This document shows, piece after piece, positions 3,950 to 42,538 of a DNA stretch of 64,000 nucleotides. The translations under genes were made by a program, and so were the position numbers. This DNA comes from Watersipora subatra (Eukaryota > Bryozoa > Gymnolaemata > Cheilostomatida > Watersiporidae), in NCBI RefSeq assembly GCF_963576615.1, contig NC_088714.1, forward strand, positions 46,099,772-46,163,771, given 5' to 3'. A model generated the notes under the pieces. It did no database searches and was not told where the DNA came from. It saw only the letters and a list, made by a program, of their open reading frames with translations. The first letter of the stretch is position 1. Each line of letters starts with the position of its first letter.

Positions 3950-4340
3950 CACTTTCTATTATGGATAAACGTACATATACAAACTATATACAATTCAAAT
4001 GCATAGATGGCTTGCTGCAAATTAAAAGGCTTCTACTGTGAAGTTTTAAACAATTTTCATCAGATAGTATAGAGACTTTTCTATCACTCAAGATTGGTTT
4101 GTTGTTTTAGGTGGTGTGATTGCCAGGACGTTTTCAGATTAAAATTGACAAAACTTGATTGCTGTTTAAATGCTCAGAAGTAAAGACATCTTTTTCTTTT
4201 GAGCATTTTAACCAAGATCAAGTTTGCCGATTTTTCTTCAAGTTTATTCGAAAGTTAGCTCACTTTTCCCAGCTTTCGGAGGGCCATCGCTAAGCGGATG
4301 CTGGGTAAAATTTGATTTTTGCAAACCTTTAACTGTATTT
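3950..4340 (+). repeat. remnant of family B/C repeat
   Basis: Contains the shared core 'TATCACTCAAGATTGG...GGTGTGATTGCCAGGACGTTT' and continues into 'TTTCGGAGGGCCATCGCTAAGCGG', which recurs reverse-complemented inside the family B element at 57105-57782. No terminal repeats recognised. Confidence 0.55.
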
Positions 4341-5029: not shown

Positions 5030-5294
5030 TTACGAGCAGACAAAATGAAAAGAACACAAGCCATACGTGGCATCAGAAGGAGGATAGTCAATGAGCGTCT
5101 GTTGGTGATGACCGCCGTCTTCTGTGGACTCTGGCGAAGACTTATCCAGCCACGATTCCACTGACATAGTTTTGTCCTGTATTTGAGAATCTAATGCCAA
5201 CTTAAGTTCTTGCAACTTCCGTTTTGACTTTTCAAATTCTGTCATCAACTCTCTGTGGTACTCTTTGGCTCGAGTGTACCTCCTAGCAAGGTCT
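5030..5294 (-). CDS. Exon: coiled coil and C-terminus of the SANTA-like gene
   Basis: Acceptor TTTTTGTTGCAG precedes 5294. The first base completes an AGA codon with the previous exon, then the exon reads DLARRYTRAKEYHRELMTEF and on through a Lys/Glu-rich helix to TAA at 5032-5030. A possible internal donor CAC|GTATGG after 'PPSDA' would remove the last ~13 residues (YGLCSFHFVCS region) and lead to the exon at 1510-1459. Confidence 0.7.
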
Positions 5295-8200
5295 CTGCAA
5301 CAAAAACATGCATAGATTACGTCTAATTAGGTATGTGTCACGCCACAATTGGTCCAACCTCGTTATGCATTAGTAATACAGTAATACAGTACGCGCAGAA
5401 TATCATAGATTTTGAGACCAGATTTGGAATCAGCGCATGTGAAATATGTATAAAACATTATTTTATTATATAATTTTTTACACTATTTCTGGTATTTTTA
5501 GTGGTTTCCGTCACCTTTTTCCATCGTTGCCGACGGCAGCCATGTTGGATTTGTCCCGCCCGCATGAGGATGAAATCTGACAAATATAAATTATTTTTAT
5601 GGAGAAAATACCTTAATAAGCATATATCAAGAGTTACATTGCCGAAAAATGAAAAAAAATTCGGGTTTTACGTGACGCTAAAATAGCTTAAATCTACAAA
5701 ACTTGCCAAAAAATAGGGCCCGCTGACTTACTTTAGCAACCTCTGACCCCAAATGACAGCCTCCGACAGACAAGTTTTTAAATGAAAATGATAGATCACA
5801 TGTGGAAGAAGACATAACTAAAAATTCAGATTTTTAGAAGACATAGTTTGAGATATTTGTTATCAAAAAACCTAAAAAATTCCGATTCGGAGTTGCCCCT
5901 CCTGAATGGCAAACTTTGGGGTGATGCCGGCAGCGCCACGAAATGTTTAGAGACTAAAATATTTGGATTTCCACCAAGTTTGACATGCTCTTTCACATAG
6001 GATTAGTTTTAATATCTGTGACGGGTCAGCACACACATTGGACCAGTCCCCATGGAATGGCCCTTATGTCATAGAGATTGTACACTATACGAACAGTGAA
6101 ATTCATGTGAATTACCTCATCCATTCCAAGATCTTTTCAAAGTCGCGCCTTTGGCCATGCAAAAAGGAAAAACTATACTGAACATTTCAATTTGTAGGCT
6201 GTACCATAGCTGCAGTATTATTGGTTTGCATAGACAACTTTTCTCCTTTTTTTGATCAATTTCCCTGGTTGTATAGACCATTATTGTGGTCATTTTACAA
6301 CAAGTAGATGGAAAACACACATCTTCGATATTAATTTGCAACGATTTGCTCATTTTTTCTAAACAGCAGTTTTTTTTCTGCAAAATAAAACTAATAACCA
6401 ATATTGTATACGCCTACAATAAAGCAAAAAATATTTTTGCTATAAAAAGTGCGGTCCTACTTAACTGTCTGCACCCTTGGGGGAGGATAGTTAGGATAAA
6501 AGATAACTTTTGACGATACTCCCAACTCATGACATTCAGATTGGTAAACCGATGCTGTAACACCTGCACCAATTGATCGCCTTCGAGCATTGATGAACAA
6601 CTGCGCATTACATGTTCTCTGTTTTGTTTGACACATATGACGATCTATCGCAACGAACTAGAATGTCATGGCTATACCATGACAAATATATATATAATAA
6701 TATATATATCTATTATATATATTATTATAATAGCTATACCCTAAATGCATATTACCCTATATACATACTCTCGCAAGTGTGACGAGATAGGTTACCATTC
6801 AAATCGAATTTGAGAACTCGGCCCCACTTGACGTTTTTTAGAATTTTTTCTATTAGTACGAAGCAAAAACTTCACATGAAATTTTTACGCTATCTAGAAT
6901 TTGAGTTATAGGAGGTATACGCTATAGAAGCATCTACTGTAGTAGAAAAGAAAAGCCAAACATGCTTACAGCATATTTATTTGTGCTTACGACAGAGAGG
7001 TGGTGCGTCAAAAGTAGTGTTGGCAAAACTAACAAAGATTGAGTTGTGTGCACATGCTCAAACTCATCTAACATTTTTTTGTTACTGCTCACTACAACGA
7101 CTCAGCATGCATTTCATCAGCAGATTGATTGACTAAATTGACCACTCAAGTCTATTGCTGATGGGTCAAGGTCTTAGCATTCATGACAAATTTAATGCGA
7201 GCTTCCGAAGCAGCACATAAGCTAGAAACGAATAAAATGGAATTGAACAATCCGATAAAAACTCAGCCAACTACAGAAGAGCAATTCACCACTCTGCTGA
7301 TAAAATAAATTATATATATATACAGTCATACTTCAACTTACGAGCTTAACGCGTTCCGAGACTGAGCTTGTATGTCAATTTACTCGCATGTTGGTGCAAT
7401 TCATTTATATATAGAACAATTAAATACATATTGATTGGTTTCCATACTCTAAAAGAAAAGCAAATAAAACACTCAAAACAAGATGTTGTAACAGAAAGAA
7501 CATGTTGGCTATTGTCCTTACGTACAACATGCTTTCAAAAAGCAACAAATAAAAAATAATTCAAGGAAATGTGATTAATTAAAATGTAAAATTAAATACA
7601 TACAATAGCAGTTAACACTCGCATTTGCCAGGGAGGGAGATATAAGTTATCCTTCGTTACAACAGTTGACTTTGATAAATTTAGATTTTATCAAAGTGTT
7701 AAAAGACAAACTTAGAAGCAAACCTAAAAGCAAACTTTCATTTTCAACTAAACGTAATTAAAATTTCTTCGGCGTTCATAGTTTGAAGTTTCTTGCTGGT
7801 TAGCGAGAAATTTTTCCTTTTTTCGCTTTCACGACTAGCCGGCCGTTTTAAGATAAACCTATCTAAGGACGTTTGCCTTTGTCGCCCTTGCAACATGTTG
7901 CGATTAGGACGAACACAGGTGTCGTCACAAATGGTTAACGCACGACCACTAGCCAACTTGTCCGAATGTCTATTAAACAGTTTGGATAGCTTGCGCCGGC
8001 CTTTTCACATAGCATCGTTTCAGTTACGCTGTCACCGGCCAATTGTTTGTCAAATGCCATCAGCGGTCGTGAAGATCGCTGCACCGTTTAGAAACTATGT
8101 TTAGTCCTTTTGCGAACTAAATGCCCTGAATATAATCCTTCTGTTTGATAATTATGAATGTATTTCTGTCATATTGCCGAGCTATCTGAATCACGCATAC

Positions 8201-11200
8201 ACATTTCGCATATTTTTCAACACTTTTCCGTTTAATATCGACTGTTATCATTTGCTTTTTCTTTGTATTATCTTTCATTTTACTGGCAAACTTTCGGTCT
8301 ACGCACAGTACTTTTAATTCACATAATTCCGCACAGAAAATCGTGCACAAAAAACACGGTACAACAGTATAACCTGAGCAGTTGAAAAATACAGAGTGAT
8401 GCTGTTCTAATAAAACACCTCCGGCATACTTGGCAACTGACTCAAGTGCTCGTATCTCAAACATGGCTCGTATGTTAGTGCTAAAACTTGCTTGAAAGCT
8501 GGCTCGTATCTCAAGTTTCTCGTACGTTGGAGCACTCGTAAGTTGAAGTATTACTGTATATAAATTGACATGCAAAATGTTGCTCACACAAAGGTAGGAC
8601 AATGATTGTAAACTTACATCTGAACCCATATGCCAAGTCAGCGAAAACAATTAGCAAATCTTTGATTCAAATCATGCTTTCCTAGTTGTGACAGGATTAC
8701 GCTTTGTCCAGTTAATAAAATAACTGCATTGACCTTTCAGCAAGTAGGTGGAGCTAAGAGTAACTAGCTTATTGTCCCAGTGTTGGCTACGAATAATAAC
8801 TACATATTTAGATATATAACACAATGGGAGCACGGGAGGGGGTAGCACACTCACTGCTTTCAAGGACTAAGTCTATAACTAGCTCTGCAGTGAAGTGAAG
8901 GCCTTCGTGAGCATGGCTGCGGCTGAGAGCGCTCGTAAAATTAAGTCTACTAGATTTGTTTTGATTGGTCAATTTCACTGCTTGCTTATTTGACTGAGAG
9001 AGCCATCTGCAGCCATCAAAAGAGCCACATATGGCTCGCGGAGCCATAGGTTCCCGACCCCGCACTAGACTGTCAGGGTACTTGACTCGTGTGTATATAT
9101 AATAGAGGTAACCCTATGCGTCGGTTTCTCTCCCAAGTGCAGCAAAAGAGAAAGCGATGTTTTAAGGCAGATTACGAGATTCTCGTTATTTAAATAGAAG
9201 ATAAGAACTTGCACCGACTTGACAATTTGCAATATTTGGATTTTTTACGTAGTATGAAACAAAAACTTTACATAAATTATTCACATCATACGGAATCTAG
9301 GTGAAAGGTTAACACCATAGGAGTGTACTGTACTTGTCAGTGGAAGAAACTACTATAGAGGAGATACTAAACAAGATGAGTTGATAAATAAGACTCACCT
9401 AACACCAGATGCATCGGCTGCCCTCACCCCTCGTGACCTCTCAAACGCACCATCCACTGTCACACTCTTCCTTGGAGAAATCTGATATGTCTGGTTTCTT
9501 TTTCGAGAGGATGGAATGGAACCGACTGGTTCAGATTCATCTAAGAGTTCCCTACAATGAATCAGGTGAGAATAAACTGCCACCCTTCATAAAGCTTTAT
9601 CAAGCGCTTCGCTAACATGGAATTGTTGTTTAGCAAACACCATACACTCTGCTTTATTGTTACTTGTTAAAAGCCATTTGATAACGCCTAAAAGGCCGAT
9701 TTTGAAATAAAATTGTAACTTTTGATCAATTTCTTTCTGAAAGGTAAGGTGATACCAGATTTTCACACAACTTTATATATAACGACAACTTATATTCCGA
9801 TTTATGTTCAAAGCAAATCCATATCAGTCTCACTCAGTCTATTTAGGCCATCTTGAAACATGAGGTAATCAGCACATTTTCATGCACATATGGATTCAGA
9901 GTTGCTTCCACTCTGAATCATAGAACTAAAACCTGAATGAACTTGACGCAGTTTCTCGTCGCTAAATTTTGTGCGAAGGCATTGGCTGTAAGGGTACTAT
10001 TTGACATCATAAAAACACCACTGCTGAGGAATCGCAATCGATAAAACTTGGCTATGTTTTCTCTAATGGAGAAAAACAAATTTCAGCGCACAACCACGCA
10101 GCTCTGCTACGAAAACGTTCTACTGTTACTCGCTACTGTTTCTGATTGACTGTCTGCCTTTACATTCACATTTACATGCCAAGGATAGGTTGATATTAGG
10201 AAGATGACGAAATAATTTCCATTTTAGTGCAACTAGTTGACTACGCATGAATCAAAAAGTGACTGTTACTCGAAAACGAGTCTGCTTTTACATCTTTTGT
10301 TTTAAGGTAAACAACATTGTTTTAACATAAACAATATTGGAATGATCTATAATGCAACTCCGAATCGTCGAAACAATAGGGTGCGAACTCGTCAGCAGCA
10401 GAAAACTCCCAACCTATTCAAAGTGTGGAAACACAGTGTATAATGGATTGCATATCATACAAGGTGTTTGTTAGCAGCAGTTCGAAATTTATAACAATTT
10501 CGGCTGACCAATTATTTGAACCAGAACAATTCTCCCTACTTCTAGATGGCAAATACAAGTAGTATGTGATATTAAAGTCCTGGCTTAACTCTTTCACTAC
10601 CACAAGCCAATGCATTGGCTCGAGTTAACTTCTCTTTGTGGCCAGAGGCCAATACATCGGCTTTTAAACAGTGCGTTAGCTTATTTAAAATTACTCAACT
10701 TCCGCTTTAGATAGACCAATAAGATCTGAACTCTATGAAAACAAGCTTATTGCTAACGATATAGACTAATCAGCAGGCCTCTCACTAGCGGCTTACTGAC
10801 TATCAAACAAAGTTCACGGCGGAAAAAGCACGGCTACAAAAGAATAACGCAATCGTTTACAGCTGTAGAACCTTCTAACATTCTTAGCGATTGCTCATGC
10901 TCATATGGGCTCAGAACTCCACATCGAGTGAGTATGACTCTTCTAGTGCATGTATTTCATGTGAAAAACTGTAATAGTAACCGAATATTATGGCGACAGT
11001 CAAAACATGACTATCAAAATTGCTGGCAAAATACAGTTAGTAGAGTTTGTAAAATTTGTCTTTTTTTACTGAAGTTGATTTAAAATTTTTCATCTATTTC
11101 CTAATAAAGTATCTTCTTTTCAACAACCTGTTTTTTAAATTGAGTGGACACCTTCATTCTTTCTCAAGCTATCACAAAATTAGTGGCATTATGTAAACTT

Positions 11201-14200
11201 TTGTGTGAATACAAAAAAAAGATTCGGGCAGAGCTAGAAATAAATTAGGCAGCGACAGAGTTAATCTAGCAAAAATCAAACATGCAGTAAATATAATTTC
11301 CGAATGCGTCAGTTTATGAAATGTATGTAGTTAGGGATTCAACACACGAATATCAACTTACATGGTTTCTTCCTCTGGTTCTTCATCAAAGTTACTTGCG
11401 ATACTTCGATCATCATCAAAGTAACTGAAAAATTACACCATACATATATCAAATAATATAAATTCATAAAGTCGCATTAAATCATAAAGTGTATAATATA
11501 TTTTGTATGGAAGACATTGATAAATGAAAGCAACAGATTTGCATTGTGTTAGAGAACAACAGTTACTGTCGTAATACAAGAAAACTGTGCCGAAGTGGGT
11601 CGACAAAAGAAACCAGATACATTAAGCTTGAGACCTGGCTACACATGCTGGTGAAACGCATCACCAACACGTAAGGTATACTTGCTATGGACACACACAC
11701 GGACACATGCACTGATGCTACTAAAAGCAAAGTTGCAAAGATTTTCCTGCAGTAGTAAATACCACAGAGAAAAATACGGTTTTTACTTATCGTCCGCCCC
11801 AAATACCTCGGGATAAATGGGGAAAAATAGCTAAGTCAGAATAAGTAATTTAAGCTATTATGCTTCATGGTGTCTCTGGTCTAACTAAACTATTAGACAC
11901 AAAGAGCACTGAAAGCATTTTAGCAAAGTATTACATAGTTGGTCTTTCACAGTTAGACCTGCACGATGTTTCGGTTTGATTCGGTGGTTGCGGTTAGTTT
12001 ATATTTAATCGAGCCGAATGTTTAATTTTCTGACATCGAACAAAACCGAAAACACCGGTTAACCGGTGTGAGTTTGAGGTGCGGTTTCGGTTTCCATATC
12101 ATAAAAACTGTGTCTGCGTGCTTGGGCAGTTACACGGAATCTTCCATGGAAATTGACACTACTTTCTCTCGAAAGGTTTTTAATCTTTACTTTACATATA
12201 CGTAGATATCACATCCATTCTCGAAAGCTATTTATCCCTCCCGCTGCCATAAACGCTTTTATGCGTTTTCTAGGGTCCACTGCCATAGATGCATTATTGC
12301 GACTTTCCCAGCAATCACGTAGTAACCTGTTTTTATTATTTGTTGACAACATAACCCGCGGTCTTTAAGACTTGTACGAAGATGACAGTGTTGTCTGAAA
12401 ACTTCTCTAAAAGAATCAGCCTAAAACAACGAAGCAATTTTAAACTTTCTAACCTAAAAACGAACATTTTTTTGTGTGAGTTCATTTTTGTGTACCGCGT
12501 GCGAGTCAGAAAACAGGTAATTAGTTATGTTGATCACATTATAGCCAAATCAGATTTTTGTGATCATACTGATAATTAAAGTAGCAGCATTGTCTCTGAT
12601 AATGGTGAAAGTAACAGTTTTGTAAGAGTAAGGAACATTGTGGAGAATCGTTTTAGCTTCGCATCGATCGTAGCTTCACATAGCTTTATCATCGCACGAA
12701 GTATTGATCCATTGAATTTTTGGATAGCAATGTTGGTTAAAATGTTGTCAAAATAAAATATGTACCATAACAAACATGTTCTAGATAAAGATTGAAAAAA
12801 AATACTGTATACATATCATGAAGCAATGTCGGTAGCTTTCGGTAAAATGGCTGGCAATGGGTAGGTACATGTACTTGAATTTGTACATGGTTGGCAGTGA
12901 AAGAGTTAAATTTCATTACAAAAATCTGAAGTTAAGGTTCATGAAATGAGGATGTTCATGTTGTCTCGGTGTCAGGTTAACCGCAATCAATTGTGACATC
13001 GTTTGACACCGTGGTGAGTCCTCATGTGTGTCGGTTATAAACGGTGTTCGATTGAAGTTGAAGTCGATAACCGAATTGGCATGGGGAGACAAATCGTGCA
13101 GGTCTATTCACAGTTCTACTAGCCATAGTCAAGAATATTCAAGTCGAGTTAGGCCTCAATATATGACACTCAAGCACGAGTGGGAGGCGCGATACAATTC
13201 CGAGCGAATGGTGACACGCATTTTCCAAAACTTCCTCTTTCCAAAGCTTTTATAGCGGAGTTGTATATATTATCAATTGAATAATGAAATTATTAATTAT
13301 GGGCATATCCTTTTGAAGTTATAGTCTGTTGTTAGCAATCATAGTACTATTGAAGGCATATCACTTCATTAAATATCATGGCTAGACATCATGTGAGCAT
13401 TAAATTGTAGGAGCCTTCATTCGAGTAAAATTCTTTTCAACCAATATTTAAATTGAGTGAAAGACTAGCAGAATAAAGGCTAGCTGTAACAATTAATTTA
13501 ATCCTTGATAGTGCATCAACTGATTCATTGCTTAGCTTAAATTCCTGAAAGGTTGATAAACAACTTAAACCCATATTTTTCCTGTCCAACTTTACAACCA
13601 TGCTTTTCCTATGAAAAATACGATTTACCACTCTCTCTCACGGTATTTAACGATAAATTTTTATACCAATTTTTCTCAACCATCCAGGATAAATTCAATA
13701 CAGTATAGCCTTAAGGCGTGGTCACACGAGCACCGAACCGAACTAAATGACGCAAAACGACGTCGCTCTCAGCTGTAAAAAGTTCGGCCGAAGACATTTC
13801 TAGCCGAAATGAACCATTTCGGTACTGCTCGAAATTTTGTGGCCGAACACTTGCTTTTTTTGGCTGGTTAAAATTCTAGAATTCTAGCGAGCACGCATAA
13901 AATCTCTCCTTACATGCGTGTGAGTAAAGTTGAAAAAGAAATGGGAAGATACTTTTATTTCGTTAAATAAACAACATGAAGCAATTTACGACAAGGTTCA
14001 CCAGGACTTGTGATTGTGTTGCGTAAATGTAAGCTGTTGCACTTAAGTTTTGCATAAATGTAAGGGAATGGTTGTGATTTTCTTTCGTGTAGAATATAAG
14101 TAATGTGTCATATCATCCTGATGAAGTATCGTTGACTGATTTATTTATGTAAAACCACAGTACTATGATAAAGGCGGATTTTGTTTATGTACTCAGCATA

Positions 14201-17200
14201 GAAAAACATTCATATGTTAATAAAAAAAATATAATTATGTTGATGGGAAGGGTTGGCAAAATCTTTGTATCGAGTGATTTATTTTGAGCAGCTGAACGAT
14301 CTTCTGATAAATCTGCTGTGTAATTATAATTTATAATTGTTTCTCAAAGTTTTTTGTTTACAATAAAAATATTTAACTTAAATACATAAAAACTACTAAT
14401 GAAACCGTGTCCTGTCACTGTACGTATGGTATCTAGGAAGCGAAGTGACGACATTTGCGCCCTACGATGCTAACACCGTAACGAATTAATGGCATATGGC
14501 GGAAGTGGACTGTCATAAACACACCATCATAAAGTCCCGCCCTTATTTGCTTCCGCTTTCATTTTTCTTTTTACTAGTCCAGCAGCGACTATCACAGCGG
14601 AAATAAATAGATGAAGCTATCAGCGACAGCGAATCATCAACACCGAAATGGTGCACATTGTACAAACTTTCGTCGACAGGCTGCTTGGCAAACTAGAGAG
14701 AAAGTTTGACAGCTGCAAACTTTTTGTGACTTCTTAAACGAAGAAGATGGTAATTAACAAAAGAAGTCTAGTAAAATTAACAGGAGTAAAGCTGTGCTGG
14801 CAAATTGCCGGGGATGACCCTGTGTTGGATATGCATAGATGTTATGCTCGGCTCCAGCTAGTCAGTGATGATCTGCTGTATGAAACATTAAATATTATTA
14901 ATGCTCCGACAACTAATAATCTTTGCTGTACAGTGCGGCCTCGGGTTACGATGTCCCTGTTATACGACTTTTTCGCCTTACGAAGTGGAACATGATGGTT
15001 TTTTATCCTCGTACGAATCCTATTTTGCTATATGAATTCCAAATATACATTTTTTTCAATATTCAAACTTGGCTGTCGGTGTGCTTATGACATCGAAATA
15101 ACAAAAATTCCAATATGCTGTTAGCCAAAAACTTTCTCACAACGACCGAAAGAGACAAAATGACCGATTGTTCTCAGTTTGTCATTTCCTATGTAAAAAG
15201 AGGTTATGAACTATTTTCCCTTCAAAACTAGTGGCAAAGTCGGAGTGGCGATCTCTTTGAACAGAGGGTCAGGGATCAGACAGCTTCCTTTAATCTGCTA
15301 ACAAAAATCATCTTCATTAGGAGAACAGCATCGCTCGGCTTTCTTGTCGAATTAGGTTGAAAAAGGTTTTAGTAAGGTCGGCTAAAAGCTATAGTGAAAA
15401 GGAACTTGAAACTAATGTGTGATAAAATTTTAGCGATGAAAAAGTTGAAGTTCAGTCAACTAGTTAAAGATACAAACATGTATTAAAACTTACCTTTAAG
15501 TGTGTGGTTAGTAAGCTAAATTCATTAAAGTTAAATTCAAAGTCTATGTTATACGTCTGTCTCAAAGGTAAGAGCTCCCTACAGTACGTGCTGCACACAT
15601 TGCATTGTAATGTTACATTTTATTGCAGATCATAACCACTAACTATACTGAAGCCACTGTAGATAACTATAGTTACTAAGGTAATCATACTATTTTGTAC
15701 CTAATTTTTAATATGTATAGCACTTATATAAAACCTGATGATTTTTACCAGAGAATGTTTGCATTTTATAATTACTAAGGGTTTCTATACCTCTCTGTAC
15801 AACATCTTCGCTATACGAGGCCAACTCTGGAACGAATTAAAATCTTACAAAGACGGAGCACTGTGCACAAACATCTCACTCAGAGTGGTGATAGTAATGT
15901 AATGTGCTCTGATCCAACAATCAATACCCAGTCATGACGAAAATAGTGATGAAGATCATGATAAGCCGCGCTGTGCTTGATAAAGTTTTATTCTAAAGTT
16001 GGAAAGCATCCTTATGTTACATTGTTTATTGAAAATACTACTTGCAGAAATAGTAAGAAAATTGTAAATAACGAGTATTTGATTTACGTATCGTACGAAA
16101 TGTACTTATTGATCGTTGTTAAGTTTAAAAGGTGTTTAAACGAGTCTGATTCGATGGATGTGCATGAACTAACCTCAAATCAGTCTAACGGAGACCTAAG
16201 GTATTACTTAGTCTTAGTTTAGCAGAAGTTAATCTTTTTACCTCTAACATTGTCCATCACTTCATATGACCACAAGAAACCTAGGTGAATACGAATTGCC
16301 GGCAAAAATTAGTCTAGCAAAAAATAGGTGGTGCATGAATAGTTAAAGGTTGACTTGCAACAAAATTCACATTACAGTTATTTGGTATCAACAGATTCAC
16401 CATGTTTTACTCTGTTGTGTTGTAGGTGCCAAATATGTGGAAATGTGATTACAAGCTTTTAAAAGCTCAAAAACGAACAGCTGATCGCAGCCATCACGAA
16501 ACCGCCGTAAATAGGAATCAGTTTATTTCTCCGACGTAGTCATTACATTTGGTTATTGTTTTGGCACGTGATGTTCTCACGTAAAATGAAAGGCCAATAA
16601 AAGACTCAATATAAAACTTCTCGTAGCACTAGTTTACGACAAACACTTCGGGTTTTAAAGAAAACCCCGTATCAAATATAGATGCTCGATACTTTACAGT
16701 TTTGTTTCGGCTTGGTCTAATCGTCTAGGCGTAATCTGATCATGTGACCCATACTTCGCGAATAATTTCTGCAGCATTTTTCGATTATCACAGGTGACCA
16801 ACAGTCTCGTCATGTTTATCAGACAATGATATGTACTCCTTCGAGCTAAGGTTAAAAAATTAAACGAATTTTCACGGTAGGTTATAAGATATCATTGCTA
16901 AAAGTGACAGCATTACAATGACGATAAAACAGACGCGTAAGAACAATAGACATGGTTTTATTGAATGAGTGAAGTATATTTGTGAAAATATTTCGACGAA
17001 TGAGGTTGCGTGAAAGTGTAAACAGAAGCCATCTTGTACAACTATGTCCCATTTGAGCCATTTTGGAAAGAGATTTTAATCTGCGGCGGATTTGTGATGG
17101 TTGCAATTAACTGTTCGTTTTTGAGCTTTTAAGAGCTTGTAATCACATTTCCACATATTTTGCACCTACAACACAGCAGAGAAAGACATGGTGAATCTTT

Positions 17201-20200
17201 TGATATAAAATAACTGTAGGCTAATTTGAATTTTGTTGCAAGTCAATCTTTAACAAGAAACACTGCTGCCTTAATGATCAATCATAGAACAGACAGCCCC
17301 ATCATGATATGATGGTACTAGGTATTTAGTTACTAGCTAATCTAATAATCAAAAGAGTAAAGATGCATTACCATTGTCCTGGTGTTCATGTTACATGTAC
17401 ATGTACAAGCTAGGCAGCTGAAAAACTACATACCTTTTAGTAGTCGTATTCTGCTTGGTGTTTCGACACATCAAACGATAGAGCCTGTTGCCGGCTGTGA
17501 TTACATAGTCACCTTTTACTTGTTTAATGCAAGACGTTTTCCACAGAGGACCATCCACCCTGCATAAACAGACATACTGACATACACTGGTAGTAGTTCC
17601 AGGACAGATCTGTGTGACAAGTCAGTCAAACTCTTTTGCAGCTCTAACAGATCGCATTCAAACTCTTTACTAACAAACTATTAATGTATTTTTAAACAAG
17701 GCTCTCGAGCAGATCAATGAAGTAATGTTCCCTAAATAAGAAGGGCAGCAATAACAAATATGTCTCCAAAAACTGACATCTGAATCTGTGCTTATCATCG
17801 TTAAGATCAAATACCACATGAAGACAAATGTTAGCACAAGTTCTTGTCAAATGTTCTACCTTCAATCCTAGGTATGTTTGGAAACTTTTTATTACCTGCG
17901 AAAAACTAGAAGTGGTTCCAGCTGATTTGTTTGACCAAATGCTGGATAACTAGATTGAAGTAATCAGCAAATATTCAAACTAAAATCTTAAACAAGCTAA
18001 AAATATGCATATTATAGCATTAGACCAATTTGACATTTTTAACATAAAGTCAAATAGACAGTGATAAATTAAAAAGCCCTGCTACATCTAGCACGCAAAA
18101 AAGAAAACACCAATGGTCCAGCAGTCAGTCAGAAATACCCCACCAATTTTCAGGCTTATCAACACGCGAAAGAACGGCGAAGAGCTTATAGGCTAATAGA
18201 GGAACTGAAAGAGGTGAAAGAGAAGAGCCATACTTTGACTCACATGGAGTATATTATGATTGGCAAAGTAAAGACAGCTAACATTTCTTCTGTCATAATG
18301 AAAAAAAAACAGAAAATTTTATAAAATATTTGATTTTGTATAAAATTAGATGTGACTTAACTTAATTCATTTATTTATATCATTTTTCACACGTTTTGAG
18401 ATATTTATCTTTGAATCTTTTTGTTCCTGGAATGGATTAGTACTCTAATAGTGTAAAAAGTGCCCTACTTACGAAGGTTTTGGATTACAAAAAGACTTTC
18501 AGACCTAATTGAGTTACTAATCCGTAATCACTGATAATAGTAACACACCCTACCCTACCCTGACTACCCTAGGTCACTAGGGTACCCAGGTCACCCTAGG
18601 TGACCTAGGGTGACTACCCTAGGTCACTTATATTTCGCTAGTATTTAGTTTCGTGAGTAGCAGACAGAGTAAAATTTCGCTGCAACTTAATTTCGCAGCT
18701 CTGATGATTGCGAAAATATAATGTGACAATATATGCAGTGGAACAAGCATAATTAGATGCCTCAAGTTCGGTTCACCGGTAAGAAAAATTTTCATTTTGG
18801 GACTAGTTTGTAATTGTGAACCGCAGGTAGAATTGTATGGCCGAGATCGATAATGCAATTTGATCGCTTGCTGCCATTTGTTTCTTGGACTACTGTAGAA
18901 TGGGATTTAATTATGCTGAAAATTTTAACGTTTTTGTCACAATTTAGCTTGTTTTATATTAACGTATTTTAATTTTAACGGTCAACGGTGTTGTGTATAT
19001 GTATTAATTTTAATGTTTTCCCAAACACTCAACTGCTGCTAATAACTGCTGAACATCTTTATTACAATAATCACAAGTTGTATACAAATACATACATGAT
19101 ACAGCGGCTAGTAATACTACAGCTACAGATACTAGCACAGTGTGTAGTTATTATAACTTCTTCTCTTCCTTTTTTACTAGTGTTACTTATCAGAGCTAAC
19201 TCTTTCTCTATTGCCTCATCTTCTGACTCATTACAAGTTATTGAAGGGGTGTCAGTGGTGAATCCAAACCTTTCCAGAGCCATGCTAATTGTGTAGTACT
19301 GTGAGTGTCAGTGTGTCATATTTTCTTTCAACACGCGGTGCTCACTGCATTGATTGATGTCCACAACAAACAATAACGCTACTAATGCGTGTGCATTGAC
19401 ATCAAATTACTATCATTATAAATCATTATTAATGGGAAAATAATCATAATTGCAAAATAATAACGTAATAAATTTGGACAGTCAAATTATTTTGTTGGTT
19501 TATATTTTAACGATGCTATAGTGGTCGTTAAAAACGTTAAAATAAATGTCGTTATAAAATTTTATTCTACAATATCAATGAACAAAGCTATTTAATTCCG
19601 CGTTTTCGCTCGTTCGTTATGATAGTTTAGTTTCGCTCATGAAATTTTCGCGAGAGGATGACTCCTCGAAAACGCGAAAGTTAGATGAGGTGAATACATA
19701 AGTGTCCTAGGGTATGGATGAATTGTGGTGCAATAAGACTGCGATGGACATTTTTGCAACAGTTATATTGTTGAGCCGTTTTCTATTACAATGATAAAAC
19801 TTTGCGTATACAATTAATCTACACAAGTTCATTGATAAATAAGACTCCTGAAAATATTATTACATAGTTACAGAAGTGAATAGATGTGAAACTGACTACC
19901 AGGAACCTTTCCCGTTTGTCCATGAGAAAATATTTGAGCTTAAAGGCGATACAGGTATAATGGTAAAATAATCAATAGTTGGCACGAAAAAAATCAAATA
20001 ATTTAATCATTTATCTAAATCATAAAGTTTCCGGAAAAAATCAAAACTTTATATTTTAATTATTTTGCGAAAATCAGTGTTTCGTGTGACAAACAATCTA
20101 GTTTTGATGTGTGTGTAACAAATCTGTACACACGTAATGTCTCGAATTAGGAAATCTGAAGGTAAGAATCGATTGCATGTAATACAATGCTACCGAAGGA

Positions 20201-23011
20201 CCTTCTTCGGATTAACCGACACTTTTTAACTTTGTGTCTAACGGAACAGTACTATTAGACATTGTTTCATATTTTCTTTCATCGCTAGAGGCACTAATCG
20301 GAGATTCTGATTAATGCGCCCTAGTGGTGAAAGAAAAAGCCACAGAATAGCCGCACCCTTATATAAGCCGCATGGCTCAAATCGTCAGAAAAAACCGCGG
20401 CTAATAGTCTGAAAAGTACGGCATATGTTAAGCACAAATAAATTTTCTATGCAGACTTTTTTATTACTCGAGTGACGCTCGGGTACAAGTACAGCTTATG
20501 GTGTAAAATAGCAAGTACAAGCTTAGCAAGTACAGTTTATGGAGTTATGGTGTAAAATGTTGAAAAAATATTTGACCGAAGTTGTTTTCTCACCTTGAAA
20601 CGGATTAAAATTTACGTAAATTTATTTTAATGGGAAAAATTGTTTCGGAAAACAACTCGGTTTTCGAACAACCTTCCGGAATGGATTATGTTCGAGAACC
20701 GAGGTTTATGGTGAATTGGAGTGCCCCGGGTTTGCATAAACCAAGTTATAAAATATTACAAGCTCGAGGTTGTGAAAATAAGGTGCAATATACTGATATT
20801 ACAGTAGAATAACTGTAGATCTGGTTATTTTAACAATGGTACACCGACAGGCACCCGTTAGCTAATAGATATAAAACTATGTATGTGCTGTAAAACTCCA
20901 ACTTATTGCTTTTACCAGGAACTCAAGTTTACAACGCACTAGTTATAAACCAATTTCGAAGAACTCGGCTTCTGCAAACGGGGAAAATCTGCTCGCAAGC
21001 ATGTTGAAAGACCCGAGTTACGGTTTCCGAGTTGGCAATGATCCAACTCGCTCTTAACAACTCAATTGTTTTCATCATTTTTTTTAAAGATTTTCTCTAG
21101 CTATATTTCTCATATGGAATTTTTTTTGGGTGCATCATTAAACATCCTTGATATAATTTTTATGTTTGTTCATATCCGGTGTTCATTCAGTTCCTTGTCA
21201 GGTTCTAGAAACAAAACTCTTTCATTTTTCATTTGAAAAAGAAGTGGCCCGGCTCCTACATAGGTTGTTTTTTAGTTTGCTTTTTACATTCTACAATCGT
21301 TTTTGTTTATTTATGTTTATATAAATAAATATGCGCAAATATCGCCAATATAAATAATTTAAATATATATTTGAATTATTATTATTAATTATTAAATTAT
21401 ATATAATATGCGCAAATGCGACTCTGTAAATGAGACACCCCAATTACTAACTGTGCTTGTTTTTACAAACCCGGGTTAGCTTTGCGTAACACAGCTTGAG
21501 TTCATCAAAAAGCCAGCCTGGGTTTTTTGAACAGCAACCCAAGTTCAACAACTTGGTTTGAGAACATGGAACACAGGGCACTGTAAAAGGGTGGTCACAC
21601 GAAAGCCGAAACGAACTAAACGACGCAAAACCACGTCGGTATCAGTTGTAAACTGTTTGGTCGAAGACATTTCTGGTCGAAACGAACCATTTCGGTCCTG
21701 CTCGAAATTTCGTAGCCGAACCCCTGCTCATATTGGCTGGTTAAAAACCCAGCGAGCACGCCGCACATTTTTCCTTATGTGTGTGAGCAAAGTTGAAAAA
21801 GAAATGGGACGATCTTTTTATTTCGTAAATTAAACAACATGAAGCAATTTACGACCAGGCTCACCCAGACTTGTGATTGTGTTGCATAAATGAAAGATGT
21901 TACACTGAGTTTTGCATAAATGTAAGAAAATGGTTTTGGTTTTCTTTCGTGTAGAATAGAAGTAATGTGTCATACCCTTCCTGATGAAGTATCGTTGACT
22001 GATTTATTTATGTAAAACCACAGGGCTATAAGGACTGCTTTTGTTTGTTATGTACTCAGCATAGAAAAACATTCATATGCTAACAAAAAATATAATTTTG
22101 TTGATGGGAAGGGTTGGCAAAATCTTTGCAACGAGTGATTTGTTTTGAGCAGCTAAACGATCTTTTGATAAATCTGCTGCGTAATTATAATTAATTTTTC
22201 CTCAAAGCTTTTTTGTTAACAATAAAAATATTTACCTCAAATACATAAAAACTACCAATGAAACATTGTTCTGTATCCTTGCATAATTGCATAAGGTATC
22301 TAGGAAGTGAAGTGACTCCGGATGCCGTGTGACATGTAGCTTAGCCTAACCAAACAAACCTCCGAACCAAACCTAAGTCGGTTCGGCCATCGTGTGACCA
22401 TGGCTTTAGGCTCCATAGAAGTTCCACTGTACGTTATTAAAAGATATACGTCACTGAAAGTTATGAAATTTTAAATTTACAGTGGTTCGAAAACCTTTAG
22501 TTGTTTTATTTGCTTTCAATTTAGTTGTCCTGCACAAACTTTTTCTTCATGATATGAAGTTTGATAGGTACAGTAACTGTTGTTTGAAAAAGTTTGAAAA
22601 CATTTGCAGTTGTTTTTATTTTTTCTCTCAACTTATTTCAACTACACAAAACACTTCTCTCATGATATGTAGTTTGAAAATTAGAATGGCAAATGTTGAT
22701 ATAGGTTAAATACAAATCAATTTTCTGTCCAAATAATTTTTTATTACCCTGGCAACGCCGGGTAGCACAGGTAGTTTAATGTATATTAACAAACAAATTC
22801 CGTGTCTTGCTAACTTTGCAAACACCTATAGCTTTATAGTCTAGACTCTAGAGAGACCATATGACTAATTTTATCCTTGGACAATATAAACCTATATACT
22901 TTTAAGCTAGAACCATACAAAAGGCTGGTTAATAACGTACCCGCCGAGCTGGCCTTCTAATCGTTGTACACCACGAGGTCCTGTTACAATGCTGTAGTTG
23001 TAAATCTCCAT
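5030..23011 (-). CDS. Split gene: SANTA-like N-terminus with C-terminal coiled coil
   Basis: Five minus-strand exons join in frame: 23015-22941, 17559-17434, 11424-11362, 9551-9399 and 5294-5030. Every junction is phase 2 with AG/GT signals. From the ATG at 23011-23009 the product is 225 residues. Residues 1-55 carry the pattern I-x(8)-V-x(3)-LEGQL...W-KTS-x-I...V-I-T-A-GN-x-x-Y-x-L, like the first two thirds of a SANTA domain (the centromere-associated domain of MIS18BP1/KNL2). The usual C-terminal SANTA aromatic motif is not found, so an exon may be missing or the match may be chance. Residues 67-87 are acidic (YFDDDRSIASNFDEEPEEET), 88-138 are Ser/Arg-rich with SPRK, and about 139-180 form a charged coiled coil (LARRYTRAKEYHRELMTEF...). 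Splicing is well supported; the function is tentative. The first and last exons are uncertain. Confidence 0.65.
6445..6935 (-). mobile_element. family M element carrying a tRNA-like segment, copy 1
   Basis: Reverse-strand relative of 48295-48815. It shares the block 'GTTACC(A)TTCAAATCGAATTTGAGAACTCG', the 'GCAAAAACTTCACAT' block, and a tRNA-like part with 'GATAGATCGTCATATGTGTC', 'GGCGATCAATTGGTGCAGGTGTTACAGC' and 'GAGTATCGTCAAAAG' (read on the minus strand). The outer ends are eroded. A TA-rich palindromic tract at 6685-6735 separates the two parts. Confidence 0.55.
7323..8556 (-). mobile_element. Tigger-like element with internal deletion, copy 1
   Basis: Complete element: inverted ends CAGTCATACTTCAACTTACGAG and CAGTAATACTTCAACTTACGAG, flanked by TA on both sides. 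Minus-strand coding remnants are the CENP-B-type N-terminal helix-turn-helix (KKKQMITVDIKRK...YAKCVCVIQIARQYDRN...IIKQKD) and the C-terminal tail (GRQRQTSLDRFILKRPASRE). The whole DDE catalytic core is missing. Copies at 44053-45301 and 56007-57012 have the same gap, so the deleted form itself was mobilised. Confidence 0.9.
8920..9063 (-). mobile_element. truncated hAT end
   Basis: The sequence 'AGAGCCACATATGGCTCGCGGAGCC...GGTTCCCGACCCC' matches the typical subterminal/terminal pattern of Charlie-type hAT ends (repeated GAGCC/GGCTC motifs running into CCCGACCCC). The partner end is not visible nearby, so this is a fragment. Confidence 0.5.
9085..9336 (-). mobile_element. family M partial copy
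   Basis: Reverse strand begins at 'TACAGTACACTCCTATGGTGTTAACC' and shares the 'AAAACTT.ACAT' and 'CGTA...TTGTCAA' blocks with the copies at 6445-6935 and 48295-48815. The tRNA-like half is absent. Confidence 0.45.
9399..9551 (-). CDS. Exon: Ser/Arg-rich linker of the SANTA-like gene
   Basis: Acceptor GATTCATTGTAG before 9551, donor GGTGTTAG|GTGAGTC at 9399. It is 153 nt, phase 2 in and phase 2 out. Reads ELLDESEPVGSIPSSRKRNQ then TYQISPRKSVTVDGAFERSR and GVRAADASGV. SPRK and several Ser/Thr-Pro or basic-Ser sites could be phosphorylation targets (inference). Confidence 0.8.
10585..11264. mobile_element. piggyBac-like MITE
   Basis: TTAA at 10585-10588 followed by CTCTTTCACTACC; the opposite end is GGCAGCGACAGAG followed by TTAA at 11261-11264, imperfect inverted repeats of about 13 bp. 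680 bp, close in size to the copies at 12232-12909 and 61979-62636. No ORF of note. Confidence 0.65.
11362..11424 (-). CDS. Exon: acidic segment of the SANTA-like gene
   Basis: A 63-nt exon between acceptor AATTTTTCAG and donor ACCAT|GTAAGTTG. Phase 2 in and out. Codes YFDDDRSIASNFDEEPEEET plus the split Ser and Met codons at its edges. Ten of the twenty full codons are Asp or Glu. Confidence 0.75.
11954..13106. mobile_element. hAT non-autonomous element with TTCACAGT duplication
   Basis: Perfect 8-bp target duplication TTCACAGT at 11946-11953 and 13107-13114. Terminal inverted repeats TAGACCTGCACGAT / ATCGTGCAGGTCTA. Subterminal GGTTTCGGTTT and CCGGTTAACCGG motifs. About 60% of the present length is a younger TTAA-flanked MITE inserted inside (12232-12909), so the original element was about 475 bp. 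No transposase. Confidence 0.92.
12232..12909. mobile_element. piggyBac-like MITE nested in a hAT element
   Basis: Ends TTATCCCTCCCGCTGCC (mutated TTAACCCTTTCACTGCC) and TTGGCAGTGAAAGAG-TTAA. Aligns along its length with 61979-62636 in reverse orientation (blocks TTTTATGCGTTTTCTA, CATAACC..CGGTCTTTA, GACAGTGTTGTC, TGGCTGGCA). 678 bp. Confidence 0.75.
13715..14447 (+). mobile_element. family H 'GGTCACACG' MITE, copy 1 (3' truncated)
   Basis: Starts GGCGTGGTCACACGAGCACC right after TTAA. It aligns with 21587-22407 and 58779-59601 over the whole length, including 'GATGAAGTATCGTTGACTGA' and 'GGGAAGGGTTGGCAAAATC'. The right end stops at 'TCTAGGAAGCGAAGTGACG', where family A-like sequence begins. 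No coding region. Confidence 0.8.
14448..14511 (+). mobile_element. family A right-end fragment
   Basis: 'GCGCCCTACGATGCTAAC.CCGTAACGAATTAATGGC...ACTG' matches the right end of family A (CGCCTTACGA...GGAACGAATTAAAATC). It sits exactly where the family H copy is cut off. Confidence 0.45.
14931..15863 (+). mobile_element. family A pogo/Tigger-like element, copy 2
   Basis: Begins TA-CAGTGCGGCCTCGGG and ends GACGGAGCACTG. Shares TTATACGACTTTTTCGCCTTACGA, the 'TTGGCTGTCGGTGTGCTTATGAC' block and 'CGACCGAAAGAGACAAAATGACCGA' with 34446-34830. 933 bp, no transposase domain. Confidence 0.65.
16347..17249. mobile_element. family I long-TIR element flanked by TTAA, copy 1
   Basis: TTAA (16343-16346 and 17250-17253) flanks inverted ends AGGTTGACTTGCAACAAAAT / ATTTTGTTGCAAGTCAATCT. 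The terminal inverted repeats extend about 170 bp (including 'GATTCACCATG', 'TTGTGTTGTAGGTGCCAAATATGTGG' and its complement). Copies at 30492-31353 and 36409-37284. A 74-codon minus-strand frame at 16882-17106 lies in the arm and shows no domain. Confidence 0.85.
17434..17559 (-). CDS. Exon: core of the SANTA-like domain
   Basis: Acceptor CTGTTTATGCAG, 126 nt, donor CTAAAAG|GTATGT. Phase 2 in and out. Reads VDGPLWKTSCIKQVKGDYVI followed by TAGNRLYRLMCRNTKQNTTT. The W-x-[ST]-x-x-I ... T-x-x-G-x-x-Y-x-L spacing is that of the middle of SANTA domains, one residue shorter than vertebrate MIS18BP1 as I recall the family. The domain call is inference; the exon is strongly marked. Confidence 0.7.
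18073..18324 (+). CDS. candidate exon coding a charged helix, no start codon
   Basis: Open plus-strand frame from 18073 to TAA at 18322-18324. After a good acceptor (CCACCAATTTTCAG, exon from 18154) it reads AYQHAKERRRAYRLIEELKE then VKEKSHTLTHMEYIMIGK, a typical amphipathic/coiled-coil composition. Upstream codons (RKKENTNGPAVSQKYPTNF) also look coding, so the exon may begin near 18092 (acceptor CTACATCTAG). There is no ATG at the front. It lies on the opposite strand within the intron between the first two exons of the SANTA-like gene. Function unknown. Confidence 0.35.
   Translation, partial: KALLHLARKKENTNGPAVSQKYPTNFQAYQHAKERRRAYRLIEELKEVKEKSHTLTHMEYIMIGKVKTANISSVIMKKKQKIL
18617..19712. 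mobile_element. family J element with CCCTAGG ends and TA duplication
   Basis: TA-CCCTAGGTCACTTAT at the left and ATAAGTGTCCTAGGG-TA at the right form inverted ends with TA target duplication. Subterminal TTCGC/GCGAA motifs are mirrored in both halves, and 'TTTTAACG' occurs in both. Two further partial CCCTAGG ends are stacked just left (18541-18616). Coding frames of 70-100 codons inside have no recognisable domain. Confidence 0.55.
20165..20460 (+). repeat. family K repeat, copy 1
   Basis: Shares 'TTATATAAGCCGC', 'ATTAATGCGCCCTAGTGGTGAAA', 'GCGGCTAATAGTC.GAAA.TACGG' and 'AACGGAACAGT' with 61470-61760, which is in the opposite orientation. The 'TAAGCCGC...CGCGGCTAATAGTC' motif is an internal inverted pair. 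No coding capacity. Confidence 0.6.
21587..22407 (+). mobile_element. family H MITE, copy 2 (full length)
   Basis: AAGGGTGGTCACACGAAAGC at the left; CCATCGTGTGACCATGGCTTT at the right. About 820 bp. A 91-codon frame at 21558-21833 starts in flanking DNA and is not conserved in frame in the other copies. Confidence 0.8.
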
Positions 23012-23015
23012 GTCA
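22941..23015 (-). CDS. Exon: N-terminal part of the SANTA-like gene
   Basis: Acceptor GGTATAATTTTAG, 75 nt, donor CTCGGCGG|GTACGT. Reads D then MEIYNYSIVTGPRGVQRLEG and QLG; the ATG at 23011-23009 is the likely start because the only candidate upstream exon carries an in-frame TAG. It joins the 17559 exon as ...QLGG-VDGPLW in phase 2. Confidence 0.65.
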
Positions 23016-23499: not shown

Positions 23500-25290
23500 T
23501 TCTTCAGAAAATATGCTAGTTTTTTTCACAGCTACTGATAAAGGCGCTACAGAAGCTTCTCTACGTGTCTCAAAGATTCTAGCAAAAGCAATGCTTCCCT
23601 ATTCCCATACTGAGATTGTAGAAGAATGCATGGTTGAGGCTATCGAAACACTTCAGATAGCGTGATGTGATTGGTAAAGTCACGGCAATACCACTTTCTA
23701 GGAAAACTGCCACTGGTAGAATTGCAAGCATTAATCATTATCTCAGAATGACTTTGCTAACCCATGTAGACCAGGCGGATTACTTTTCAATCGCCATTGA
23801 TGAATCTACTAATATAATGGATGTTGCTCAATTAGCAGTCTTCGTAAGGTATGTAGGCTACTGTGTGTACACTAATTGGTAATCATTTTTACCATGCATT
23901 TGCAAGCATAAGTCATACAAGTGCATTTTAAAAGACAGTAAAGAGAGAAAACAACTACAAGTAGAAAATGTTGCACTTATTTTATATTTGTTTCAAAGTG
24001 ACTAACCCGCTCATTTATACTACATGCTTCTTTATAAAGCATCGGTATGTTTTTTTTATAAAGCATAGTATTATGCTTTAGTCTTATACCCTGTGTTGCA
24101 GATTCTTTGATGGTGAAGAAATGAAGGAGCTTCTTACTTTGGTTGGATTAGAAGGAGAAGCCACTGGGCAGGCTACCCATGATGCCCTCATTAAAGAAAT
24201 TTATAATATGAAGATACCTCTCCACAAATGCATATCCGTAACAACAGATGGCGCACCAGCCATGGTTGGAAGAGATCAAGGTGTCATAGCTAGATTGAAG
24301 AAGGATATGCCATCAATGCTAGCATTTCATTGCATCATCCACTCAACAGTTTTATGCGAAAAACTAAATGATCACTTTCAACAGCTAACGTGTAAGGCTA
24401 TGAAGATGATCAACTTCCTCAGAAATCAATCAGTTCTCAGACACAGAAACTTAAGGAAGTTTCTCAAAAAAAAACGTGCCACTTGTGAAGATTTACTAAC
24501 ATACAATAACATTAGATGGCTAAGTAAGGGAAATGCTCTGTCGATGTTGTGAAGTATTCGTCAGGAGCTAACCAATTTCTAAATACATGCATCAGCCTGA
24601 ATTCAAAAGTTTCAAGAGATGATGAGCTCTTCTAAAGATATGAGTGACCTTGCCTTCCTTGTTGACATCGGTGGCCAATTGAATGATTTGAACCTCAAGC
24701 TTCAAGGGAAGAACAAGACTATCATTAATACACTACCAGCTGTTCAAGTCTTCTCCCATAAGTTGGAGTTGTTTCTGGTGGATGTGCAAGGTGATATGCT
24801 TCACTTTCTTACTCTAAAAGCATTTTTAGATGATGATGATGATGAAATGGCGTCTTGTACAGCTGAGTATACTCACTTTATAGAAAAGCTGCAACAAGAG
24901 TTTAGCAATCGATTTAGTCAGTTTCAATCATTGAAACATATCATACAACTCATAAAAGCACCTCAGAAGGCAAAGCCTAGTGGAGAGTGGGTTACTCAGT
25001 TCAGTCAGTCGACATTGAAAAGTGCTAATGTCTCATCTCTGCAACTGGAGTTGTGTAACCTCAAAAGTATAGATATAGATGAAATTGGGTTCTACTTGAA
25101 AGCTTCAACAAAGGCTGACTTGAAAGCTTCAACCAAGGCTGAATATCCACAGCTTGCTCAACTAGGAAGATGGTTGTACACTGTGTTTGCTGTCACATAT
25201 ATATGTAAATCAGCATTTTTATACATGAATAATATCAAGAGCAAGTTGAGATCCACTTTGACCCAAGATCTTTTGTGCCAGCTCCTATGA
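23500..25290 (+). pseudogene. hAT transposase (ZBED5/SCAND3-like), broken
   Basis: Translations match the domesticated/Charlie-like hAT family in order: an 'ASLRVSKILAKAMLPYS...EECMVEAIETL' block, then a TGA and frame change at about 23662, 'FSIAIDESTNIMDVAQLAVF' (RNase H-like first Asp), and a 253-bp intron 23849-24101 (GTATGT...TTGCAG, phase 2). Then 'CISVTTDGAPAMVGRDQGV', 'AFHCIIHSTVLCEKL', 'NNIRWLSKGNAL', a stop at 24550, and 'DLAFLVDIGGQLNDLNLKLQ'. The C-terminal dimerisation part ends 'TYICKSAFLYMNNIKSKLRS'. The N-terminal BED finger was not found. A KASTKAD/KASTKAE repeat near 25100-25140 is a short in-frame tandem duplication. Stops and frameshifts make it inactive. Confidence 0.9.
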
Positions 25291-33299: not shown

Positions 33300-33399
33300 T
33301 CATAGTGCTTGAAGTACGAAGTATATAAAAAGGTTTTGATGCCATACTAAATCAGCATCAAATCTTTCATCAGTTGATGCTTTAAAAACAACTCCAAAT

Positions 33400-33890
33400 A
33401 TGTTGCAGAATGAGCTTCTTTGGGGTCCAAGTATGTTGCAGAATGAGCTTCTTTGGGGTCCAAGTATGTTGCAGAATGAGCGTCTTTGGGGTCCAAATAT
33501 GTTGCAGAATGAGCTTCTTTGTGGTCCAAGTATGTTGCAGAATGAGCTTCTTTGGGGTCCAAACATGTTGCAGAATGAGCTTCTTTGGGGTCCAAACATG
33601 TTGCAGAATGAGCTTCTTTGGGGTCCAAATATGTTGCAGAATGAGCTTCTTTGTGGTCCAAGTATGTTGCAGAATGAGCTTCTTTGGGGTCCAAACATGT
33701 TGCAGAATGAGCTTCTTTGGAGTCCAAACATGTTGCAGAATGAGCTTCTTTGGGGTCCAAATATGTTGCAGAATGAGCTTCTTTGTGGTCCAAGTATGTT
33801 GCAGAATGAGCTTCTTTGGGGTCCAAATATGTTGCAGAATAAGCTTCTTTGGTGTCCAGATAGTTGCAGAATGAGCTTCTTTGGGTATTC
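33400..33890. repeat. 33-bp minisatellite with higher-order structure
   Basis: About 15 copies of a 33-bp unit (ATGTTGCAGAATGAGCTTCT + TTGGGGTCCAAGT). Because 33 is a multiple of 3, frames stay open on both strands (plus MLQNELLWGPS, minus DPKEAHSATYL and GPQRSSFCNIF). Variants TGTGG/AGT, AAC, AAC, AAT recur in the same order in two successive groups of four copies (from about 33520 and 33652), a 132-bp higher-order unit, and then partly in a third. I do not call it a gene, since nothing marks one frame over another. Confidence 0.9.
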
Positions 33891-41640: not shown

Positions 41641-41967
41641 TATAAGTTTAAAACTAACAGGTAAAGTTTTAAAACTAATAGGTAAAGTTTTAAAACTAAC
41701 AGGTAAAGTTTTAAAACTAATAGGTAAAGTTTTAAAACTAATAGGTAAAGTTTTAAAACTAATAGGTAAAGTTTTAAAACTAATAGGTAAAGTTTTAAAA
41801 CTAATAGGTAAAGTTTTAAAACTAATAGGTAAAGTTTTAAAACTAATAGGTAAAGTTTTAAAACTAATAGGTAAAGTTTTAAAACTAATTATAGGTAAAG
41901 TTTTAAAACTAATAGGTAAAGTTTTAAAACTAATAGGTAAAGTTTTAAAACTTATAGGTAAAGTTTA
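41641..41967 (+). repeat. 21-bp minisatellite
   Basis: About 15 copies of AGGTAAAGTTTTAAAACTAAT, nearly perfect, with one 3-bp expansion (ACTAATTAT) near 41889. It begins at 'GATAAACTTTACCTATAAG', the inverse of the unit, in the 3' part of the decayed LINE. One frame (GKVLKLI)n is open throughout. Confidence 0.95.
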
Positions 41968-42538
41968 AATTAAAAAAACTTTTAAGTATAAGTGGTCTTG
42001 ATGGCGCATTCAAAATTTTATTCAAGTGATTATAAAGTAAAAAAGATTCTCACTATAATGCTAGGTTTTTAAAAACCATGAGGGCCTTGACCCAGCGAGG
42101 AGATAGTAACAGTCGAGGTTAGTTCCGAATCACCACCCATCACCTGTTCCATATCTACCATTACAAATATTTTATACTGCTTCTAGTAAACAACAATTGA
42201 ATACAGAGTATTATCAGAGTACCAGCACGATGAAACAGTCTTCCAATAGACTTAAGCAAAATTTCAGCATTTACTAGCTTTAAAAGAAATGTTAGGAGCC
42301 AGTTGTTCACCCTAGATTATTCAAGACCTACTATTCGAGTTTCAATGAACTATGCCAAATATTTACACTTACAACCAAAATATACCAACTTCTGTGGGCC
42401 CAACTCATCGATCAGCTGCAGTGCTACTGCGCTTGTGGGCCTCATCATATTTTCATAAGTAGAAATTAAGCTTTCATTTTTTCATTTAGTCAGTATTGTA
42501 ACTATACCTTACTTGCTTATTATAGTTATCCGCTGCAC

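Follow-up and report, generated by a model that had tools for sequence, protein, structure and literature searches.

The five short exons lying between positions 5030 and 23015 on the minus strand very probably form a genuine spliced protein-coding gene, belonging to a small, dispersed and uncharacterised family. Judging from the sequence, we put the probability of this reading at about 92%, a figure that refers to the gene and not to the job of its product. The window (the whole stretch of 64,000 nucleotides analysed here, to which all positions refer unless a contig is named) corresponds to positions 46099772-46163771 of the contig hereafter referred to as C7; relatives of the gene lie on four other contigs (C9, C3, C6 and C2). 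A gene whose small symmetric exons are scattered along 18 kb had been suspected from the raw sequence, and was confirmed by the layout of the paralogous loci and by an intronless copy. In itself this is an ordinary spliced gene, encoding a protein without a Pfam match.

Structure of the window gene

The gene spans about 18 kb, with all its exons and introns on the minus strand. Exon 1 (22941-23015, 75 nt) encodes MEIYNYSIVTGPRGVQRLEGQLG, and both its ATG and its length are kept in C9 and C3. It is followed by intron 1 (17560-22940, 5381 nt, phase 2), bounded by GT and AG in C7, C9 and C3, and by exon 2 (17434-17559, 126 nt), which encodes the second half of the N-terminal module (VDGPLWKTSCIK...LYRLM...). 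Intron 2 (11425-17433, 6009 nt, phase 2) precedes exon 3 (11362-11424, 63 nt), coding for the acidic segment YFDDDRSIASNFDEEPEEET, and intron 3 (9552-11361, 1810 nt, phase 2) precedes exon 4 (9399-9551), a basic linker containing SPRK and measuring 153 nt in C7, C9 and C3 alike. Beyond intron 4 (5295-9398, 4104 nt, phase 2), which is missing from an intronless fragment on C6, exon 5 (5030-5294, 265 nt) encodes a predicted coiled coil, a Ser-rich tail ending in ...PPSDAT, an 11-codon extension and TAA. The coordinates and lengths proposed for these exons in the earlier note proved exact, and the joined sequence bears out its claim that they read in one frame through four phase-2 introns: 225 amino acids are encoded from the ATG (23011-23009) to the TAA (5032-5030). 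All five exons are free of stops and frameshifts, and each of the four introns is bounded by GT and AG.

The ATG lies 4 nt inside the exon 1 acceptor. It is probably the start codon, because it is kept in all three copies (C7, C9 and C3) and the search upstream gave no convincing coding exon; the first 4 nt of exon 1 would then probably be 5'UTR, and translation starting in exon 1 implies a non-coding exon further upstream. Comparison of the window with C3, a search that short or fast-evolving exons could escape, yielded no convincing coding exon on either side of the gene; upstream, it covered 57 kb of C3. The best colinear upstream match (42368-42421, E 0.004) lay beyond a galactosyltransferase ORF, and the downstream matches at 4250-4333 look repeat-like.

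At the other end, C9, C3 and a decayed relative on C6 terminate immediately after ...DAT, whereas the assembled window copy reads 11 codons on: the minus-strand codon at 5063-5065 is TAT in the window, TGA in C9 and TAA in both C3 and the C6 relative. By alignment, the last 11 codons are an extension specific to the window copy, beyond an otherwise common stop. Continuation of exon 5 through a further phase-2 donor was considered and dropped, because C9, C3 and C6 all terminate there. Having lost the common stop, the window copy could itself be drifting.

Strength of the signal within the window

We compared the window with 40 dinucleotide shuffles of itself, using general metazoan splice weights that are not fitted to the Watersipora subatra genome. 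Minus-strand donors at least as good as the weakest one used numbered 16 in the window versus 21.5±4.5 in the shuffles, and open internal-exon candidates of the same grade numbered 15 versus 9.6±3.5 (maximum 18). Exon 1, the acceptor of which scores poorly (-3.2) and below the cut, is not one of these 15 candidates. The splice sites had been described as good; GT-AG is indeed present at all four introns, but site quality does not exceed that of the shuffles. Likewise, the shared phase had been considered unlikely by chance, but three symmetric internal exons are expected by chance about once in 27, making this weak evidence. From the window alone, the five-exon gene is not clearly above chance; it rises above chance because its exon layout recurs elsewhere in the genome.

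Paralogous loci

The 784-Mb genome was searched with the joined protein, giving at least 19 matches at E values up to 10 and at least 14 at 0.001 or better. Among the matches listed, five were in the window, five on C9, four on C3, three on C6 and two on C2. The C9 locus carries exons 1 to 5 in order on the minus strand, over 32 kb, and the C3 locus exons 1, 2, 4 and 5 in order on the plus strand, over 24 kb. The weakest matches were those of C9 exon 3 (E 0.29), C3 exon 1 (E 0.03) and C3 exon 4 (E 0.02), such individually weak matches of short exons being counted by their order and spacing. With paralogue boundaries read by eye off the alignment and then cut by script, the lengths of exons 1-4 were 75/126/63/153 nt in C7, 75/126/66/153 nt in C9 and 75/126/–/153 nt in C3, and the positions of GT and AG and the phase agreed across the three copies. 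The 66-nt exon 3 of C9 retains its splice sites; in C3, a 51-nt candidate for exon 3 was chosen by an AG/GT scan scored on similarity and does not constitute independent evidence. The length of exon 5 up to DAT differs among the copies (229, 202 and 292 nt) by multiples of 3. The earlier claim of a hidden multi-exon gene is upheld by this recurrence of order, lengths and phases, and by an intronless copy recording the splice between exons 4 and 5.

Stops within the exons of relatives had been named in advance as evidence against the gene. We looked for them in the paralogues: the exons of C9 and C3, like those of C7, contain none, and the only stops lie in exons 4 and 5 of a decayed C3-type copy at C6:34812800-34814908. 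This copy illustrates decay in the absence of constraint.

We also matched the 1,439 minus-strand stop-to-stop pieces of at least 15 amino acids against 100 kb of C3. Repeats were masked beforehand, a mask that covered 42% of the window and 52% of C3 and hid exon 1. The strongest matches in the orientation of the gene were exons 2, 5 and 4 (E 1e-17, 3e-16 and 1e-10, respectively); outside the exons, the best E values were 2e-5 (14445-14513) in this orientation and 2e-7 (1924-1998) in the opposite one.

About 26 kb of the window aligns colinearly with C9, in blocks that share roughly 80-95% identity. As this colinearity includes the introns, the alignment identifies the C9 copy as the product of a segmental duplication. 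Exon 5 stands apart in this comparison, with a dS of 0.60 and a dN of 0.22, versus dS values of only 0.02, 0.11 and 0.06 for exons 1+2, 3 and 4. The C2 matches are a tandem pair of exon 5 fragments, 86.6% identical to C9 exon 5 over 127 aligned bases versus 76.7% over 176 for C7. Our guess is that exon 5 is a mosaic produced by exchange between copies.

An intronless copy

Near position 60915610 of C6, the 3' part of exon 4 runs directly into exon 5, without intron 4. The join falls exactly at the predicted junction and is in frame (VTVDG...ASGRRDLARKYPRAKE...). The fragment, at positions 841-1722 of C6:60914110-60917331 (minus strand), includes the exon 4-5 join and adjoins, on its downstream side, the last third of an 18S rRNA (RF01960, 400.6 bits, model positions 1118-1823 of 1831). 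As we read the alignment, the RF01960 span opens with a spurious part overlying the piece of exon 5, the clear match beginning from GACAG near model position 1240. The two sequences meet near a short stretch common to both. No target-site duplication was apparent, the longest exact word common to the 86-nt and 190-nt flanks being 7 nt, and the printed stretch contains no poly-A run.

Processed (reverse-transcribed) gene copies are found in which the copy is chimeric with a structural RNA through template switching. The C6 fragment resembles them in lacking the intron, in beginning inside exon 4 and in being joined to 18S rRNA, but differs from them in having neither a poly-A run nor a flanking repeat longer than 7 nt. 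The simplest reading of this arrangement would be that a spliced message was reverse-transcribed and that the enzyme switched templates in the process. The fragment records one of the four junctions, in a family member other than the window copy.

Selection on the protein

Codon analysis of C7 and C3 was performed on exons 1, 2, 4 and 5 (191 codons), excluding codons split by introns. The estimated dS was 1.05 and dN 0.34 (dN/dS 0.33; p 3e-9 for synonymous versus non-synonymous change), and dN/dS was 0.36 for C9-C3 and 0.60 for C7-C9. For C7-C3, pN/pS in the claimed frame (0.49) was the lowest of the six frames, the others giving 0.75, 1.03, 0.83, 0.53 and 0.93; the next best (0.53) is an antisense frame. 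C7-C3 differences at the three codon positions numbered 67, 50 and 78, a modest third-position excess. For C9-C3, pN/pS was 0.52 in frame versus 0.64-0.93 in the other frames. The C7-C9 pair did not discriminate between frames (0.63 in frame; 0.60, 0.98, 0.51, 0.74 and 0.98 in the others), and the case for constraint therefore rests on C3. On these substitution patterns, the protein in the claimed frame is under selection according to both C7-C3 and C9-C3, the C7-C9 pair being uninformative.

At the DNA level, 5 of the 201 bases in pooled exons 1-2 distinguish C7 from C9, versus 208 of 2372 in the pooled flanks (p 7e-4); for pooled exons 1-4 the count is 21 of 417 (p 0.009 versus flanks). The contribution of individual exons is uneven. 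Exon 2 is 98.4% identical to its C9 counterpart, versus 92.1% in its flanks, whereas exon 1 (96.0%) barely exceeds its flanks (94.7%) and exon 5 (82.4%) is less similar than its flanks (87.0%).

The encoded protein

Exons 1-2 encode a module of 61 amino acids, with 62% amino-acid identity between C7 and C3, followed by a linker that is acidic in exon 3 and basic, with SP sites, in exon 4. Exon 2 modelled alone gave a poor model (pLDDT 57) of a two-strand hairpin. Exon 5 was predicted to form one helix over residues 2-52, with pLDDT block means of 94-99 over residues 1-50, a single-sequence prediction that is weak evidence of function. The 11 a/d positions, picked by eye, are near-identical in four copies, reading LYAHLFSLLLQ in C7 and C9, LYAHLLSLLMN in C3 and LYANFLSLLLQ in the C6 fragment; except for S, H/N and Q/N they are apolar. 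Exon 5 thereby shows the heptad pattern, several turns long, and a coiled coil is predicted.

No Pfam family reached its cut-off with the C7, C9 or C3 protein. MG280, Snf7, DUF2917 and BRISC_FAM175B_helical appeared far below cut-off (E 0.02-0.83) and were rejected as due to chance or coiled-coil composition. Sequence searches of the PDB, with the proteins singly or as a profile, revealed no convincing relative, and the entries listed, all with E values of 0.5 or worse, were interpreted in the same way. A scan of viral contigs with the N-terminal module matched 28 patterns, none of which was confirmed. Animals have small, uncharacterised coiled-coil gene families, with which this family shares a small protein, a fast-changing tail, several copies and the lack of a Pfam family; it differs from them in the good conservation, from copy to copy, of the module encoded by exons 1-2.

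The SANTA domain is characterised by an aromatic start, EG, W..S/T..I, T and Y.L. By eye, the N-terminal module resembles its first two thirds, the W, I, T and Y residues being similarly spaced, raising the question of whether the protein is a short SANTA-like (KNL2/M18BP1-type) centromere protein. The SP sites and the short, single-module layout, in which one module is conserved and the rest of the protein varies, are also reminiscent of plant beta-KNL2, a protein of 281 amino acids (PMC9210943). The same paper gives the end motifs of SANTA as VxLxDW (N-terminal) and GFxxxxxxxFxxGFPxxW (C-terminal), and another paper reports a solved crystal structure for the SANTA domain of human M18BP1 (PMC13294675). 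With the motifs as given there, the C-terminal one is missing from the joined C7, C9 and C3 proteins, and the N-terminal one is replaced by MEIYNY (C7 and C9) or MELYNY (C3), in which the residue classes are similar and identity is confined to the L of C3. No copy matched PF09133 at its 21-bit cut-off. The reference was a plant SANTA sequence that Pfam recognises as such (96.9 bits; 59.8 for its first 70 residues); alignment to it remained at the level of shuffles (p 0.056 and 0.149 for local alignment, 0.35 and 0.18 for end-free alignment) and fell outside the register seen by eye, and the profile score was reached by 1118 of 5000 shuffles. A search for the SANTA family in the same genome gave no match, but 14 control genomes were likewise silent, which makes this negative uninformative. 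The coiled coil is a further difference from SANTA proteins. Membership of SANTA/KNL2 is thus not supported by Pfam, motifs or shuffles, and we consider this identity very unlikely. An equally improbable speculation is that the family descends remotely from a centromere factor of the SANTA type, shortened and duplicated in animals and acting as beta-KNL2 does in plants, with a tail that evolved rapidly after duplication.

Alternative explanations and proposed model

The most serious objection to a functional gene is that the window copy may be a recently dead pseudogene of a real family, still carrying its old exons. Its loss of the common stop, with the resulting extension, the fast change of exon 5 relative to C9 and the clear decay of the related C6 copy are all consistent with such a history. 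However, the five exons have remained open and without frameshift, their introns retain GT-AG throughout, and the pooled first two exons are closer to C9 than the pooled flanks; we consider a dead copy unlikely. The family might instead belong to a mobile element rather than to the host, given that copies or fragments occur on five contigs and that the flanks are rich in repeats. Such an origin is highly improbable: the exon matches found are few (at least 19), the introns measure 1.8-6 kb, the joined protein contains no Pfam transposase or reverse transcriptase, and segmental duplication together with one intronless fragment accounts for the copies. Finally, the exons might be segments that merely happen to be open and bounded by AG and GT, as their signal quality and the number of candidate exons, within or near the shuffled range, would allow. 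Recurrence of the exon layout in C9 and C3, in order, lengths and phase, together with the intronless join of exons 4 and 5, refutes this reading in substance, leaving it a negligible probability.

A genuine spliced protein-coding gene, in an intron-rich genome of animal type, remains our preferred reading. Its family comprises at least the window copy, the segmental duplicate on C9, with its introns, and the more divergent copy on C3, together with the decayed C3-type relative on C6, the exon 5 fragments on C2 and the intronless fragment on C6. The primary transcript would lose four phase-2 introns, three of these splices (all but that joining exons 4 and 5) being ones that we infer, and translation would probably start at the ATG of exon 1. 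Skipping of the symmetric exons, allowed for in the earlier note, would be feasible in principle, but no observation made here supports it. The product would consist, in order, of the compact N-terminal module, a variable linker, acidic and then basic, with SP sites, the coiled coil, and a fast-changing Ser-rich tail running to DAT. Its likeliest job, proposed tentatively, would be that of a small adaptor, pairing through the coiled coil and binding a partner through the N-terminal module.

Other features of the window

Two ORFs (156 and 229 amino acids) at 24082-25290 on the plus strand, upstream of exon 1, resemble, by eye, parts of a hAT/ZMYM-type transposase, with nothing above the Pfam cut-off; the shorter one is shared with C9 (82.6% amino-acid identity over residues 36-156). 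Three related repeat copies, at 8117-8650 (minus strand), 44202-44492 (plus) and 56107-56445 (plus), carry a short ORF that begins, by eye, like a pogo/CENP-B-type DNA-binding domain. The first two gave nothing above the Pfam cut-off, and C3 has copies that are 88-97% identical. Tandem arrays are a source of false ORFs: the 33-bp array at 33393-33885 (15 copies) has long open frames on both strands, and long spurious frames are also found in the arrays at 50-525 (13 bp, 36.8 copies) and 41647-41966 (21 bp, 15.1 copies).

The galactosyltransferase ORF occupies positions 35037-36017 on the minus strand (326 amino acids; PF01762, E 9e-40). The 100-kb stretches of C9 and C3 contain nothing that matches it. 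A relative with 63% identity lies about 40 kb away in the opposite orientation (C7:46175169-46176032), and C7 carries two more distant relatives (30%).
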